Source of the DNA: Ancrocorticia populi
GTDB lineage: Bacteria; Actinomycetota; Actinomycetes; Actinomycetales; Actinomycetaceae
Direction of reading: 5' to 3'
DNA: 64,000 bases
Assembly (NCBI RefSeq): GCF_003123745.1
Contig: NZ_QETB01000001.1
Location: 992,001 to 1,056,000 of the forward strand
Shown here: positions 1,170 to 8,218 of the stretch, piece by piece
Layout of the letters: each line of letters begins with the position of its first letter
Position numbering within the stretch: position 1 is the stretch's first letter
Notes under the pieces: model-generated
Told to the model about the DNA's origin: nothing
Seen by the model: the letters and a program-made list of their open reading frames with translations, nothing else
The model's database searches: none
Translations under genes and position numbers: made by a program

Positions 1170-1436
1170 GAGGGGCTCCTTAGAACGGCTAATTCGTTTA
1201 CACCATCAAAGTAGCGAACAAGGTCCAAGGTCTTCAGATGGGTAAGGCTTACCAAACCGCGTCGTAGGGCCGATAAACTGTTGCAACTTCGCCGATTTGA
1301 CATTTATGCGCAATTTTGGTTGTAAATATCTATTCTCTGCCCAGAGCAGAGATAAGATAGCTGCGCCATAGCTAGCTATGGACGAAATTCTATGGCGGCA
1401 CATGATCGGCGAAGAATTGAGGCGTCTGGGCCAACC

Positions 1437-2156
1437 TTCACGCACGCTAATGACGTGGTCAATTAGCCCGTACTCCCGTGCCTCGACCGGTGTAAAAACG
1501 CGATCGTGATCCGTGTCGCGATGGAGCTTTTCTGCGCTCTGCCCAGTATGGCGAGAAAGGATCTGTTCAAGTTCCGCACGTATTCTGACGGCCTCGTCCG
1601 CCTGCAAGATGAGATCGGGGATGTTGGCGCGCCGCTCCTGATTGCTCGGCTGATGAAGGACTATCCGCGTGTGGAGTAGAGCCAGACGGTGCCCTGCGGT
1701 GCCTGAGCCGAGCAGGATGGCTCCCACGCCAACGGCCTGCCCAACGTACGTCGTGCAGATTCTAGGGCGGATGTAGCTCATCGTGTCGTAGATGGCGAGC
1801 ATGGCGCTCGGATCCCCGCCCTCACAGTTGATATAGAAGCTGATATCCGCGTCCGGACTGGAGGATTCGAGAAACAGCAATTGAGCAATGATACTGTTGG
1901 CCACCCCAAAATCGATGAATCCATACTCTTTGGCTTCGTCTGCCGAATACCAATGATCGTGCAGGGAATCCTCGAATACTCGCTCAAGGGGTTGCCCAGT
2001 ATCCTCACTGGTTATGCCTAGAACGGTATCCCGTGTATGGCGAACATCTTCCGCCTGAAGCTCCACGTCCGTTGTTGAGCCGCCCATACCAGCTGAACCT
2101 TGGTGCATCAGAATGCGGCTATGAGGTAGCGCTCGGCGTTTGCCCGGTGTGCCTGA
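1437..2156 (-). pseudogene. Chimeric ClpP protease remnant (clpP1 tail fused to clpP2 core)
   Basis: Reading down from 2156, the frame gives SGTPGKRRALPHSRILMHQ and continues to EYGFID. This is the second half of a ClpP, starting after the nucleophile serine and including the active-site His. At about 1904 it switches in frame to VANSIIAQLLFLES, the interior of a second ClpP, which runs to DHVISVRE near 1437. The second unit has GQAVGVGA where active ClpP has G-x-A-S, so its nucleophile Ser is replaced by Gly; its His (LHQP) and Asp (RDTD) remain. Upstream of 2156 the frame stays open with unrelated residues until a stop beside the flavodoxin end. Downstream it runs about 75 non-homologous residues to 1206. 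The only ATG (2108) lies inside the conserved core. I infer a deletion between tandem clpP genes plus loss of the 5' half. Working clpP genes presumably lie elsewhere. Confidence 0.8.
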
Positions 2157-2769: not shown

Positions 2770-3585
2770 ATGGCACGAATGAGTGATCGAGAAACTGAGA
2801 AGCGGATGCTTGATACGGCCGTTTCGTTGATTAATGAGCGGGGAATCGCCTCCATCGCATTTGACGAGGTGATCCGCGAGGCGGGCGTTTCGCGAACGTC
2901 CGCATACCGCCGTTGGGCTGGGAAAGATCGTTTCTATGCAGACGTACTCATCAAGCTTGCTCACGGCGCTGGCCTGCCGGGGCCCGAAGCCCACCTGGGC
3001 CCGGTCCTTTCGCGGCTTGTTTTGGACCGCTCTGATAGCCTCGACTCTCCGGATGAGGTGCGGTCGCTCTTAGTCGAAATTCTCCGCGTCAGCATCACGG
3101 CGGACCTTGATCTTGTGAGTTCCTCTCCGCAGTGGCGCACGTACCAGCTGTTACTCGGTAGCTATCAGGGTATTGAGGATCCAGAGGTGAGAAGGGCTGT
3201 CACCGAAGCCTTAGCGGATACGGATCGCCGCGTTGCTGAGCTGCGGGCGCGGGTCTACGCCCAGTTCACCGCGCTGTTGGGATACCGGCTTCGGGCCCCG
3301 CTGAGTGGCCCCGAAGGTTTCGAGTTCATGAGCCGGGCATCGGGAGCTACGATGACCGGCGTTCTCGCGCGGAACTCTCTGGGGGATACTGAGATAAGAA
3401 CGCCGCGGCCCATGCGGGCATTTGGAGCCAACGTGGCTGCGGACTGGGCGCCAGGAGCCTATATGGTGGCAGCAACCGTGCTGGCCTACATCGAGCCCGA
3501 TCCCGGTGTTGTCTGGGACCGCCAGCGAATTGACGATATGGTGGCGGCTCTCAGAGACCTGCAGCACGCAGCTCCTCCACAGTAG
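2770..3585 (+). CDS. TetR family transcriptional regulator
   Basis: The N-terminal 60 residues form a TetR helix-turn-helix (LDTAVSLINERGIASIAFDEVIREAGVSR, then SAYRRWAGKDRFYADVL). The long, poorly conserved C-terminus is the ligand and dimer domain. I chose the ATG at 2770 because a -10 hexamer (2758-2763) lies immediately upstream. The in-frame ATG at 2755 would lie upstream of the predicted transcription start. The resulting mRNA would be leaderless. The product is 271 aa, longer than the usual 190-230. The 3' end overlaps the convergent PfkB gene by 35 nt. It probably controls itself and the divergent flavodoxin; the ligand is unknown. Confidence 0.85.
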   Translation: MARMSDRETEKRMLDTAVSLINERGIASIAFDEVIREAGVSRTSAYRRWAGKDRFYADVLIKLAHGAGLPGPEAHLGPVLSRLVLDRSDSLDSPDEVRSLLVEILRVSITADLDLVSSSPQWRTYQLLLGSYQGIEDPEVRRAVTEALADTDRRVAELRARVYAQFTALLGYRLRAPLSGPEGFEFMSRASGATMTGVLARNSLGDTEIRTPRPMRAFGANVAADWAPGAYMVAATVLAYIEPDPGVVWDRQRIDDMVAALRDLQHAAPPQ

Positions 3586-4414
3586 GTGCTCCCGTCCCGC
3601 CGGGAGCCTCCGTCGCGAGGCCCCCGGCAACACTCGCGGCCCGCATGGCCTCACGCAAGTCAGCACCGTCAAGGAGCGCCCATCCGAGGGCCGCGGAAAA
3701 AACGTCCCCGGCCCCCGTGGCGTCAATTGCCTTTGCGGGAAACGCCGGTATAGAGGTAACGGCGTGGGAGTCAGCCCCCACGCAGCCGTCAGCCCCGCGC
3801 GTGACCACCACGTGGGGCACCCGCTGCACGAGAGCCGCAGCAGCAGCTTCAGCGGATTCGGTGCGGGTGTAGGCGCGGGCCTCATCCTCGTTGGGAACGA
3901 ACACATCCGCTAGCGCCAACGGCTCGAGATCCGTAAGGCTCCAAACTCCCGATTCGTCCCACCCAACATCCGCAATCACTAGTGTCCCAGCCGCGCGCCA
4001 CCGCGCAACAACCTCACTATTAGCGGCAAGAGCACGCAGGTCCCCCATAAGAAGGTCAGGTGCCGGACCGGACAGCGGCGGTGCCTCATTGCTCCCATTG
4101 GAGACCATGGCGCGATCGCCCGCAAGGCTCATTGCCGCCGTGACCGCCTGACGCGGAATGGGGGCAAGGAGGGAGTGGGACACGTCGTCGTCGGCCAAAA
4201 TGGAGCGCACTAGCCGTCCTGGGGAGTCTTGGCCCACGTACGAACACAAACTCGTGTGGACTCCCAGCCGGGCGAGCGCACGGGCTTGGTTAGCGGCGCC
4301 GCCTGCGGTGATCTCGCACGTATCGCTCCAGAGTTCTTCGCCAGCGTGAGGGAGCCGTTCGAGGCCGGTGAAGATGACATCCAGAAACAGTGGGCCGATC
4401 ACTACGGCTCTCAT
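3551..4414 (-). CDS. PfkB family carbohydrate kinase (ribokinase-like)
   Basis: A 287-residue sugar kinase. The N-terminal strand MRAVVIGPLFLDVIF is followed by the PfkB signature 1 region GGAANQARALARLG near residues 37-50. The C-terminal signature contains DATGAGD, with the catalytic base Asp at about residue 237. It phosphorylates a sugar hydroxyl with ATP; the substrate cannot be read from sequence. I chose the ATG at 4414 over the upstream one at 4489 because the family starts at this beta strand and the longer form would run into the divergent GH4 gene. It is divergent from GH4 with a 64-nt gap, suggesting a shared sugar-catabolic role. Confidence 0.85.
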   Translation of the reverse strand: MRAVVIGPLFLDVIFTGLERLPHAGEELWSDTCEITAGGAANQARALARLGVHTSLCSYVGQDSPGRLVRSILADDDVSHSLLAPIPRQAVTAAMSLAGDRAMVSNGSNEAPPLSGPAPDLLMGDLRALAANSEVVARWRAAGTLVIADVGWDESGVWSLTDLEPLALADVFVPNEDEARAYTRTESAEAAAAALVQRVPHVVVTRGADGCVGADSHAVTSIPAFPAKAIDATGAGDVFSAALGWALLDGADLREAMRAASVAGGLATEAPGGTGAPTVEELRAAGL

Positions 4415-4478
4415 TGGGTCTCCTTCCGGTGTTACGATGCTGCGTACCATTATCACCCGCGGATGGAGGAAGCGCTCA

Positions 4479-5819
4479 ATGAAACTCACGATAATTGGAG
4501 GCGGAGGCTTCCGGGTCCCTCAGATTGTTGAGGCGCTCAGCCGCCGTGACGATCTAGATGTGAGCGAGCTGCGCCTCTACGATGTGTCCGCCGAACGCCT
4601 TGAAGTGATGGCGGACGTGTTGGAACAGCTCCCAATCGCGCGAAAGCCGCGGATTGTGACGGGAACGGACCTGCGCGAGGCTGTGCGCGGGGTAGATTTC
4701 GTTTTCTCAGCGATGCGCGTTGCCGGAACCGAAGGACGAGTAAGCGATGAGCTCATCGCGCTCAGCCACGGGATCTTGGGGCAAGAAACCGTAGGACCTG
4801 GCGGATACGCCTACGCGCTGCGCACGATCCCGGCGGCCTTGGATTTGGCGCGGGCCGTCAAAGAGGAAGCCCCGAACGCTTGGGTCATCAACTTCACGAA
4901 CCCTGCGGGGATCATCACTCAAGCGATGCGCGAGGTGCTGGGGCCACGGGTGATCGGCATTTGCGATACCCCGATCGGACTGGTGCGCCGGGCGGCCCGG
5001 GCGCTTGGAACCAGCGAATCCGAGCTGGACTATGACTACATCGGGCTTAACCACCTCGGCTGGCTACGGAGCGCCACGAAGGATGGCGAGGAACTTCTCC
5101 CGCGTCTTTTAGAGGACCCGGAGCTGCTCACCCAAATGGAGGAAGCGCGCCTCATCGGGTTGGACTGGGTGCGGAGCCTTGGCATGCTGCCCAACGAATA
5201 CCTTTTCTACTACTACCGTAACCGCGAGGCCGTGGCCCAGATCCGCGATGAGGCCCAGACCCGCGGGCAGTTCCTTTCGGCCCAGCAGGGGGATTTCTAT
5301 CAAGCCGCCCACAGCCAGCCGCAGGAGGCTGCGGCCCTCTGGGATCGCACGCATCGCGAACGCGAAGAAACGTATATGGCCGAGGCCCGCGAGGTTGCTG
5401 GCGCCGGAGAACGCGAAGAGGAAGATCTAGACGGCGGCTATCAGGAAGTTGCCTTGGACCTTATGACTGCCCTCTCGGGTGGACGGCCTGCCCGCATGAT
5501 CCTAGGTGTGGCAAACGCGGGTGTTATCCCGGCGCTCGCGGACAGCGCGATCATCGAAGTTCCGTGTACGGTGGACCAACGTGGTCCGGTAGCCGTGGCG
5601 CTGGCGCCGCTAGAAGGTGCCGAACTTGGCCTCGTGACGCAAGTAAAGGCGTGCGAAACGCTCGTGATCGATGCGGTTCGAACCAAGGATCGTGCGACGG
5701 CGTGGAAGGCGCTAGCGCTGCATCCACTCGTGGATTCGGTGGACGCGGCGAAGGAGATGTTAGATGAATACTGCGAGGCGATCCCCCAGGTTGCCGCGGT
5801 TTTCGAGGAAGGACGTTAG
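4479..5819 (+). CDS. Glycoside hydrolase family 4, 6-phospho-beta-glucosidase-like
   Basis: A 446-residue GH4 enzyme. These use NAD+ and a divalent metal to cleave phosphorylated (sometimes unphosphorylated) glycosides by a redox elimination mechanism. IIGGGGFRVP at residues 5-14 is the NAD loop and NFTNPAGI at 138-145 is a conserved motif. Cys162 (ICDTP) and His192 (GLNHLGW) are the expected metal ligands. The ATG at 4479 is preceded by GGAGGAAG at 4464-4471. The stop codon overlaps the start of the next gene by one base (TAGTG), so translation should be coupled to the PIG-L deacetylase. Exact specificity (6-P-beta-glucoside, chitobiose-6-P or other) is not readable; the deacetylase partner favours an N-acetylated substrate. 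Confidence 0.85.
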   Translation: MKLTIIGGGGFRVPQIVEALSRRDDLDVSELRLYDVSAERLEVMADVLEQLPIARKPRIVTGTDLREAVRGVDFVFSAMRVAGTEGRVSDELIALSHGILGQETVGPGGYAYALRTIPAALDLARAVKEEAPNAWVINFTNPAGIITQAMREVLGPRVIGICDTPIGLVRRAARALGTSESELDYDYIGLNHLGWLRSATKDGEELLPRLLEDPELLTQMEEARLIGLDWVRSLGMLPNEYLFYYYRNREAVAQIRDEAQTRGQFLSAQQGDFYQAAHSQPQEAAALWDRTHREREETYMAEAREVAGAGEREEEDLDGGYQEVALDLMTALSGGRPARMILGVANAGVIPALADSAIIEVPCTVDQRGPVAVALAPLEGAELGLVTQVKACETLVIDAVRTKDRATAWKALALHPLVDSVDAAKEMLDEYCEAIPQVAAVFEEGR

Positions 5820-6526
5820 TGGAACACGAGAGAGTGCTTGGAGTATTTGCCCATCCTGACGATGCAGACGTTGGCTCGGGTGGGGCGCTCGCTCAGTTCG
5901 TCGAAGCGGGCGCTGAGGTTGGACTAGTTGTGGCCACCGCGGGCGATGCCGGTGGTTTCAAGGAAGAGGGACAGGACCAGATCGCCGGCGTGCGTATGGC
6001 TGAACAGCGCGCTGCCGCTGCTTGCCTCGGGATCGATGACGTGACGTTCCTCGGCCACCTCGATGGCGAAGTTCGAGTCACATCGGAGTTAGTCCGCGAC
6101 ATTGTGGCCCAAATCCGTATCCACCGGCCCACCCTGGTGATCACCATGACTCCGGAACACAACTGGACGAACCTCGCGGCCTCCCACCCGGATCACCGCG
6201 CGGTAGGCGAGGCAGCGATCCAGGCGATATACCCAGCCTCCCGCAATCCTTTCGCCTTCCGTGAGCTCAAAGCCTCGGGATTGGATCCGTGGATGGTAGA
6301 GGAAGTGTGGCTACAGGGACACCACAATCCCAACCACTACGTTCAGCTAACGCCGGGGCAGGTGGAGAAGAAGGCACAAGCGGTCCAGTGCCACGCTACT
6401 CAGTTCGAGGACATGGCATTCATGACCCAATACGTGTGGGAGCTGGCGCGCCAAGGCGCGGTTAATGGCGGTTTAGGACGCGATCGGTACGCGGAGGAGT
6501 TCCTACGGTATTCGGCGCGCGAGTGA
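5819..6526 (+). CDS. PIG-L family zinc-dependent deacetylase
   Basis: A 235-residue LmbE/PIG-L protein. AHPDD at residues 11-15 and HPDH at 123-126 supply the zinc ligands and general base. The family removes acetyl groups from N-acetylglucosamine-type substrates (MshB, BshB, PIG-L). GTG at 5819 overlaps the GH4 stop, and its own TGA overlaps the GTG of the next gene. It therefore sits in the middle of a translationally coupled trio. In that setting it is more likely to act on an amino-sugar disaccharide or phospho-sugar than in mycothiol synthesis. That is inference; MshB-type activity cannot be excluded. Confidence 0.85.
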   Translation: MEHERVLGVFAHPDDADVGSGGALAQFVEAGAEVGLVVATAGDAGGFKEEGQDQIAGVRMAEQRAAAACLGIDDVTFLGHLDGEVRVTSELVRDIVAQIRIHRPTLVITMTPEHNWTNLAASHPDHRAVGEAAIQAIYPASRNPFAFRELKASGLDPWMVEEVWLQGHHNPNHYVQLTPGQVEKKAQAVQCHATQFEDMAFMTQYVWELARQGAVNGGLGRDRYAEEFLRYSARE

Positions 6527-7164
6527 GGAAAGCCCTAGCGCTCGCGATCTTGCTCGCACTAGGGGCCACCGCCTGTAGCACCTCGGCATCCGAACGGGCA
6601 GTTCCTCCGCAGGAAATCCCCGATCTGACCGACGAGACATGGATCGAGCGCACCGCAGAGGATACGGGCATTCCCGAGGGCGCCCTGCAGGCATACGCGC
6701 AGGCCGCTGTAGCGCTAGCCGAATGCGGAATCGGTTGGAACACTCTCGCGGCCATCGGCGCCACGGAATCTGGTCACGGCAGCCACGGCGGAGCGACGAT
6801 CGCCTCGGACGGCCTTGTGACCCCGGAAATCATCGGGATTGCCCTAGACGGCGGAGAATCGGTAGCGGCCGTCCCCGATACTGATGGCGGATCCTATGAC
6901 GGAGACACCGAGTGGGACCGCGCCGTTGGCCCCATGCAGTTCATCCCCGAAACGTGGGAGATCTACGCCCAAGACGGCAACGGTGATGGCGAAACCAACC
7001 CGCACCAGATCGACGATGCTGCCCTAACCGCGGCCACGCTCCTGTGCGAGCGCGGCGGTGACCTCACTACCGAAGAAGGCTGGTACTCGGCCATCTTGGC
7101 CTACAACGCATCCGAACAGTACGCCGCCGTGGTGGCCGACCGTGCCACGCGGTACGTAGAGTGA
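6523..7164 (+). CDS. Lytic murein transglycosylase lipoprotein
   Basis: A 213-residue lipoprotein. The signal peptide ends in the lipobox LGATAC with the lipidated Cys at residue 18. The SLT fold has the likely catalytic Glu82 in IGATESGHGSHG. It also carries the actinobacterial features GPMQFIPETW, DGNGDGETNPHQIDDAALTAA and AILAYNASEQY. It should cut peptidoglycan between MurNAc and GlcNAc at the outer face of the membrane, releasing anhydro-muropeptides. The GTG start overlaps the PIG-L stop (GTGA), so it belongs to the same operon as GH4 and PIG-L. This coupling is the main reason to suspect a wall-sugar recycling role for the cluster. Confidence 0.85.
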   Translation: MRKALALAILLALGATACSTSASERAVPPQEIPDLTDETWIERTAEDTGIPEGALQAYAQAAVALAECGIGWNTLAAIGATESGHGSHGGATIASDGLVTPEIIGIALDGGESVAAVPDTDGGSYDGDTEWDRAVGPMQFIPETWEIYAQDGNGDGETNPHQIDDAALTAATLLCERGGDLTTEEGWYSAILAYNASEQYAAVVADRATRYVE

Positions 7165-7168
7165 GACC

Positions 7169-8218
7169 ATGAAACTTAGCGTCCTAGACCTCATTCCACT
7201 GCGCCGCGGGCAGACCAGCCGCGATGCCCTCCTCGCCAGTCAGGCCCTCGCCCGCGAGGCCGATCGACTCGGCTACACCCGCTACTGGGTGGCCGAACAT
7301 CACAATATGGAAGCGATCGTCTCAACGGTTCCCGCCGTGCTCATCCCGTTCCTCGCTGAGGGAACCTCACAGATCCGCTTCGGCTCTGGCGGGGTCATGC
7401 TGGCCAATCACGCTCCATTTGCGGTGGCCGAACAGTTTGCACTGCTCTCCGAGATGATGCCGGGCCGCGTGGATCTGGGGCTCGGGCGCGCTCCCGGTTC
7501 GGATCAGCTCACTGCCGCGGTGCTGCGTCAGGCGCTACCGGGCGACGGAGTCCAGAACTACGTCCGTGACGTCACCCTGCTACGGGAGCTGCTCGGCGGC
7601 GGGGAAACGCCAGTGGGCGAGCGCGTACACGTGGAGATTTCCGGACGCCCCTTTGACCTGAGCGCCACTCCCGCCATGTCCACGGCTCCGGACATTTGGC
7701 TTCTTGGTTCCTCCGCCTACTCTGCCGAGGCCGCCGGCCAGCTCGGCCTGCCCTACGTGTTCGCCAATCACTTCGGAATGCCGGGCATCGACGAGACGCT
7801 TCGGCTGTACCGCGAGAGCTTTGTGCCCTCTGCGAGTTTCCCTGAGCCGAAGACGTTGGTGCCGGTGAACGTCGTCGTCGCCGAAAATGCGGAGGAAGCC
7901 AACAAACTGGCCCTTCCCCAGAAGCTGAGCAACGCGCGGCTGCGTAGCGGTGGGAAGATGGAGCCGCAGGCCACGGTGGACGAGATGGAAAACTACGACT
8001 GGGCCGCACGCGAATTCATGGCGCCCGCGCCCGGTCCCGATTCTATGTTCGTGGGGACGCCAGAGCATGTTGCCGAGGGGATTTCGGCGCTCGCGGCCCG
8101 TCTTGGCGCGGACGAGGTGATGGTCAGTCCCGTCGCCGGTGCCTACGCCGGGGACGATGTGGATCGCGGGGCCCGGCGCGAAGAGTCGCTTCGCCTGCTG
8201 GCTGGTGAGCTTTTTTAA
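7169..8218 (+). CDS. LLM class flavin-dependent oxidoreductase
   Basis: A 349-residue luciferase-like monooxygenase. It has the family landmarks RYWVAEHHNM near residue 44, FGSGGVMLANHAPF near 70-85, PGRVDLGLGRAPGS near 100, and a C-terminal FVGTPEHVAEGI. It would use reduced F420 or FMN; the substrate is unknown. It begins 4 nt after the lytic transglycosylase stop, so it may be the last gene of that operon. Its 3' end overlaps the convergent MFS gene by 4 nt. Confidence 0.85.
   Translation: MKLSVLDLIPLRRGQTSRDALLASQALAREADRLGYTRYWVAEHHNMEAIVSTVPAVLIPFLAEGTSQIRFGSGGVMLANHAPFAVAEQFALLSEMMPGRVDLGLGRAPGSDQLTAAVLRQALPGDGVQNYVRDVTLLRELLGGGETPVGERVHVEISGRPFDLSATPAMSTAPDIWLLGSSAYSAEAAGQLGLPYVFANHFGMPGIDETLRLYRESFVPSASFPEPKTLVPVNVVVAENAEEANKLALPQKLSNARLRSGGKMEPQATVDEMENYDWAAREFMAPAPGPDSMFVGTPEHVAEGISALAARLGADEVMVSPVAGAYAGDDVDRGARREESLRLLAGELF

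Follow-up and report, generated by a model that had tools for sequence, protein, structure and literature searches.

A stretch of 64,000 nucleotides (the window) from Ancrocorticia populi (GCF_003123745.1, contig NZ_QETB01000001.1, positions 992,001 to 1,056,000 of the forward strand) was analysed, and the subject here is a four-gene cluster near its start, which an earlier sequence-only reading had proposed to be an amino-sugar or peptidoglycan-fragment salvage cluster. A PfkB/ribokinase-family sugar kinase (3551-4414, minus strand; PF00294, E 9.5e-36) was identified there, divergent from a GH4 glycosidase of the NAD-dependent family (4479-5819, plus strand; PF02056 and PF11975, motif GGGGFRVP / CDTP). 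The GH4 gene was followed on the plus strand by a stand-alone PIG-L/LmbE-type de-N-acetylase (5819-6526; PF02585, E 1.1e-27) and by SLT, an SLT_2 lytic transglycosylase whose N-terminus is lipobox-like (6523-7164; PF13406, E 1.3e-8). GH4 and PIG-L overlapped by one base (TAGTG) and PIG-L and SLT by four bases (GTGA), so the four genes, their overlaps and the divergent kinase were all placed as the earlier reading had described. By its position, SLT would be co-transcribed with PIG-L and GH4. The divergent region between PfkB and GH4 (4415-4478, 64 bp) contained ribosome-binding-site (RBS)-like stretches on both strands. The starts of the two genes were set at the ATGs at 4414 and 4479, each preceded by such a stretch, the mechanical open reading frames (ORFs) of both being longer. 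Only short inverted repeats were seen when a conserved operator was sought in the 64-bp gap, and the kinase reached no NCBIfam equivalog cut-off.

Linkage of these genes was surveyed in 213 genomes of the family Actinomycetaceae, with GH4 counted at E up to 1e-30 and stand-alone PIG-L from 137 bits upwards. PIG-L was matched in 31 genomes, nine of which (62-115 bits) were set aside, none of them having the match within 20 kb of GH4; second pieces of split matches in G031 (PIG-L) and G026 (PfkB) were omitted from the linkage count. GH4 was found in 79 genomes and PfkB in 82, with both in 77, and they lay within 10 kb of each other in 76 of these 77; 75 of 77 near pairs were on opposite strands. 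Stand-alone PIG-L was found in 22 genomes, 19 of which also hold GH4 (Fisher p 7.7e-7, genomes treated as independent), and it lay within 10 kb of GH4 in 12 of these 19, from four genera and with the window's own genome included. The proximity of PfkB to GH4 and of PIG-L to GH4 is more than chance, and the case that the three genes are functionally linked is strong; they recur together, which supports this part of the sequence-only reading. In G031 (C16:3871-4562), PIG-L appeared as two abutting pieces, either a broken gene or a sequencing error.

Locus maps were made for 40 relatives and the window, and a tblastn tally covered 42 family loci and 38 class loci, the latter picked for spread from class-level GH4 matches. 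PfkB was present in 40 family and 32 class loci, permeases in 27 and 24, a solute-binding protein (SBP) in 25 and 23, and a DeoR regulator in 19 and 16. GH38 occurred in five loci of each set and GH29 in five class loci. Stand-alone PIG-L was found in five family loci and in none of the class loci, and SLT in one family locus, that of the window. What the relatives' loci add is a sugar ATP-binding cassette (ABC) importer, whose SBP is weakly NgcE-like, often DeoR and sometimes NagB.

PIG-L also occurs in a second form, as a fusion with NPCBM_assoc and CBM9 domains, which was present in nine class loci and in 7 of the 42 family loci (not 8, the 54-bit match in L042 being its stand-alone PIG-L). 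In the family survey this fusion was found in 13 of the 213 genomes, 213-5315 bp from GH4 in all 13, and it shared none of the 213 genomes with stand-alone PIG-L. The large proteins at L032:5500-8787, L179:14743-17436 and L184:14541-17396 have 897-1095 aa, and a signal-peptide-like N-terminus was seen by eye in some members; they are candidates for a new secreted deacetylase family, and one such protein tried against NCBIfam gave no match. In L196 (7162-13697) PfkB, GH4, SBP, two permeases and the fusion followed one another in this order on one strand, the GH4 there having the same partners and belonging to a different subfamily, only 32% identical to the window GH4.

A quick GH4 tree with three long branches was built from 78 loci, L195 and L197 being left out as short, and loci cut by contig ends were scored as being without PIG-L. 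The window paired with L031 (99). Across 75 rows, the presence of PIG-L required no fewer than 17 changes, so the pairing of PIG-L with GH4 has been gained or lost many times, i.e. it recurs. From the PIG-L side, the best 80 of 406 relatives among the matches listed were taken; PIG-L escaped the gene caller in 23 of these 80 loci, and counts came from a tally covering all 80. The six Actinomycetaceae-type loci among them (L083-L088) all carried permease-permease-SBP just upstream of PIG-L, with GH4 and PfkB also present in four; L083, L086 and L088 are apparently contigs of G012, G147 and G149 of the family set. The other 74 loci yielded neither this importer nor GH4, so this PIG-L subfamily has other roles outside Actinomycetaceae. 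The PIG-L locus of L085, recorded as Sanguibacter keddieii, was nearly the same as that of Schaalia odontolytica L086, and the genome is perhaps mislabelled.

Both Pfam domains of the window GH4 were well over their cut-offs (N-terminal E 7.5e-41, 140.1 bits vs 23.2; C-terminal E 5.5e-47, 160.9 bits vs 24.1). Its best solved relatives were 6-phospho-beta-glucosidases, then 6-phospho-alpha-glucosidases, and its AlphaFold model (predicted local distance difference test, pLDDT, 95.1) gave Z 41.9-46.9 to 6-phosphoglucosidases, 37.0 to LplD and 31.8 to AglA; in sequence and predicted fold it thus resembles the 6-phosphoglucosidases. Nine pocket residues are named for Salmonella ChbF in the part of PMC13197890 covered, and the same letters occur at these positions in E. 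coli ChbF. Seven of the nine were identical in the window GH4 (R87, E103, T104, N141, C162, H192 and Y241), and MelA has no Arg at the R87 column. GGGGFR together with CD[ST][PA] was common to 74 of the 80 GH4 loci, and was not in L196 nor in L193, L194 and L198, which resemble the Streptomyces csn cluster; two rows were too short. Of 394 genomes sampled from the class, 98 carried this GH4 subfamily, and the window's own genome (2.65 Mb, 8 contigs) had a single GH4 match at the threshold applied.

For PIG-L, phmmer matched LnmX (1.7e-33), the archaeal diacetylchitobiose deacetylase Dac (8e-21), BshB (1.2e-8) and MshB (4e-7). The AlphaFold model (pLDDT 94.3) superposed on LnmX with Z 33.0 and 1.6 A over 225 residues, closer than on Dac (Z 30.4-31.5, 2.0-2.1 A, 226 residues, 28% identity), with Z 27.1 to BshB and 22.2-22.7 to MshB, so that the predicted fold is nearer to LnmX and Dac than to MshB. 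The metal motif HXDD plus H was intact, H12-P-D14-D15 and H126 being invariant in 30 sequences, and no signal peptide was seen by eye in the window protein. The sequence-only reading had named, as a case that would overturn its proposal, PIG-L being the mycothiol enzyme MshB. That identity was rejected: the protein scored 45.6 bits against an NCBIfam cut-off of 224.35, its fold is more distant from MshB than from Dac, and no MshC over the cut-off was found in the genome (best match 254.8 vs 485.1 bits). More broadly, PIG-L could be a deacetylase of thiol biosynthesis (MshB, BshB), or else a conjugate amidase, that stands beside GH4 by chance, given the common fold superfamily, a BshB1 score of 86.7 bits and the Z value to BshB; yet every NCBIfam cut-off was missed (BshB1 182.5, BshB2 195.25, Mca 277.15, besides MshB), and with the best MshC match so low and PIG-L linked to GH4, this is hardly probable at all.

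SLT did not share this linkage. It was found in 11 of the 213 family genomes including the window's, and in 8 of these GH4 is present too (p 0.016), a mildly raised genome-wide co-occurrence which was read as shared ancestry. In none of the 10 other genomes did it lie within 50 kb of GH4 or near a strong PIG-L match, and no SLT match was present in the loci of the 80 best PIG-L relatives or in the 79 other GH4 loci of the tally. Since it lay within 50 kb of GH4 only in the window, SLT was dropped from the system, and it looks like a bystander or chance passenger. The lytic transglycosylase as a partner, claimed by the earlier reading, was therefore not borne out, and the cell's own wall as substrate lost its basis because SLT is unlinked to GH4 elsewhere. 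Peptidoglycan salvage, in which the transglycosylase would free N-acetylglucosamine-anhydro-N-acetylmuramic acid (GlcNAc-anhMurNAc), PIG-L would deacetylate it and GH4 would cleave it, agrees with the four-base overlap in this genome and with an ES motif of SLT that looks like an active site when aligned with MltB-type enzymes. It is very improbable in view of the distribution just described, and SLT is a predicted surface lipoprotein, whereas the sequences of PIG-L and GH4 point to the cytosol. An MsnO8-family luciferase-like monooxygenase (7169-8218) starts 4 bp past the SLT end, and the transcript may run on.

The earlier reading is partly supported. With moderate probability, PfkB, GH4 and PIG-L form the core of a locus by which actinomycetes handle an oligosaccharide of N-acetylated amino sugars, most probably a chitobiose-type GlcNAc disaccharide; that GH4 acts on an amino-sugar glycoside already freed of its N-acetyl group is the best interpretation, though unproven. 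ChbG, which deacetylates in chitobiose use, has another fold than PIG-L. Deacetylation before the GH4 cut is the best reading, which agrees with the ChbG-like role given to PIG-L by the sequence-only reading, the substrate being putative. From the gene families, linkage, folds and NagA-like and NagB-like genes observed, we infer a substrate, its anomer, an order of steps, a role for PfkB and a phosphorylation step. The sugar would be taken up by the ABC importer, and within the cell PIG-L would strip off the N-acetyl group; the PIG-L fusion of other genomes, with its signal-peptide-like N-terminus, would deacetylate instead, presumably outside. PfkB would phosphorylate the sugar, or the freed monosaccharide, then GH4 would cleave the de-N-acetylated, probably 6-phosphorylated glycoside by its NAD-dependent mechanism, and NagB would convert glucosamine 6-phosphate to fructose 6-phosphate. 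Adjacent NagA-like and NagB-like genes were present in the own genome (C1:868988-871035), about 121 kb from the window locus; the NagB-like gene was over its Pfam cut-off, and both missed the NCBIfam equivalog cut-offs (168.4/225.65 and 206.1/236.9).

A wider proposal can be made only tentatively and is possible but doubtful: an undescribed actinomycete route that would begin by deacetylating GlcNAc oligosaccharides from chitin or N-glycan cores, and in which PIG-L (cytosolic, or the secreted PIG-L/NPCBM/CBM9 fusion) and an oligosaccharide-acting PfkB would feed a distinct GH4 subfamily (GGGGFR...CD[ST]P). If true, it would give a function to this GH4 subfamily and to the fusion, and unrelated deacetylases would have been recruited more than once for deacetylation before the GH4 cut.

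Several observations weigh against the amino-sugar reading. No importer adjoins the window locus, and the nearest one in the own genome (C4) was only 41% (permease 2), 53% (permease 3) and 42% (SBP) identical to the usual one; a second amino-sugar cluster of that genome (L192:7124-13834, on C6), with GH20, a ROK kinase, an SBP and two permeases, could serve chitobiose. NagB was near just 2 of the 38 class loci (adjoining L181 and L184) and none of the 42 family loci. In the pocket, ChbF N173 corresponds to D163 of the window GH4, and ChbF R282, also named in the part of the paper covered, has no aligned Arg; R262 was suggested as its equivalent by one alignment, which three more alignments did not bear out. 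The motifs CD.P and GLNH.GW match 6-phospho-alpha-glucosidases too, so that GH4 may cut either anomer. Furthermore, in 54 of the 79 GH4-bearing family genomes no PIG-L of either form lay within 10 kb (some contigs end early), and Streptomyces-like loci carry GH38 and GH29 without PIG-L, so GH4 may have another substrate.

These last points are what a different explanation draws on, in which the GH4/PfkB core cuts a neutral or mannose- or fucose-containing glycoside, for example an N-glycan trimming product, with PIG-L serving as an optional accessory which deacetylates a part of the substrate other than the residue cleaved by GH4. The GH38 and GH29 genes of the tally and the many GH4 genomes without nearby PIG-L would be accounted for, and a Cutibacterium acnes GH4 of 'unknown activity' is placed beside GH38, GH125 and GH20 in what the passages covered of PMC6160142 describe as a hypothetical N-glycan locus. 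However, both PIG-L forms are strictly linked to the locus, NagB is present in two operons, and the GH38 loci are on branches of the GH4 tree separate from the PIG-L loci; this explanation is unlikely, though it deserves to be taken seriously.

Elsewhere in the window, a ClpP ORF (1206-2108, minus strand) encodes 300 aa; its Pfam match stops at residue 221, and the 79 residues beyond have no match and may represent a frameshifted end.

Among known systems, the statement of the sequence-only reading that no described pathway has this set needs trimming, since Dac/GlmA of archaea and csnREFGHK of Streptomyces are closely analogous in the parts of their sources covered. No paper pairing PIG-L with GH4 turned up among the listings searched, which covered open-licence PubMed Central (PMC) text only. 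The csnREFGHK cluster likewise unites an ABC importer, GH4 and a sugar kinase in an actinomycete, and L193 looks like it, with a ROK regulator, an SBP, two permeases, GH4 and a BadF-type kinase. The amino-sugar locus could be a csn-type chitosan-oligosaccharide route, in which GH4 and the kinase process glucosamine oligomers and PIG-L only tidies leftover acetyl groups. This is improbable: L193 has BadF-type and ROK proteins instead of PfkB and DeoR, no PIG-L, and a GH4 of another subfamily (motifs GGGSTYTP and CNVA). Orthology with the csn GH4 was rejected at 36% identity and with differing motifs, the kinase type differing too, and no ROK regulator was present among the flanking window genes scanned.

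The hypothetical N-glycan locus 2 of Cutibacterium acnes (PMC6160142) similarly combines GH38 and an ABC importer with a neighbouring GH4, the one which that paper calls of unknown activity; it differs in having GH125, GH20 and a ROK kinase, and no PIG-L is named in the passages covered. In ChbG/ChbF, de-N-acetylation must come before GH4 cleavage, according to the parts covered of PMC13197890 and PMC12791066, and the deacetylate-first logic proposed here is that of the E. coli chb operon, the window GH4 being 30% identical to ChbF. There, uptake and phosphorylation go through a phosphotransferase system (PTS), whereas an ABC importer and a PfkB kinase would serve in the present system; a scan of ten flanking genes of the window showed neither PTS genes nor a ChbG-fold deacetylase. 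In archaea, a PIG-L/LmbE deacetylase (Dac) likewise acts first, on diacetylchitobiose, and GlmA is a GH35 glucosaminidase instead of a GH4, as far as the source passages go. In the best reading, by analogy, the present system would operate as ChbG/ChbF or Dac/GlmA do, using enzymes from other families.

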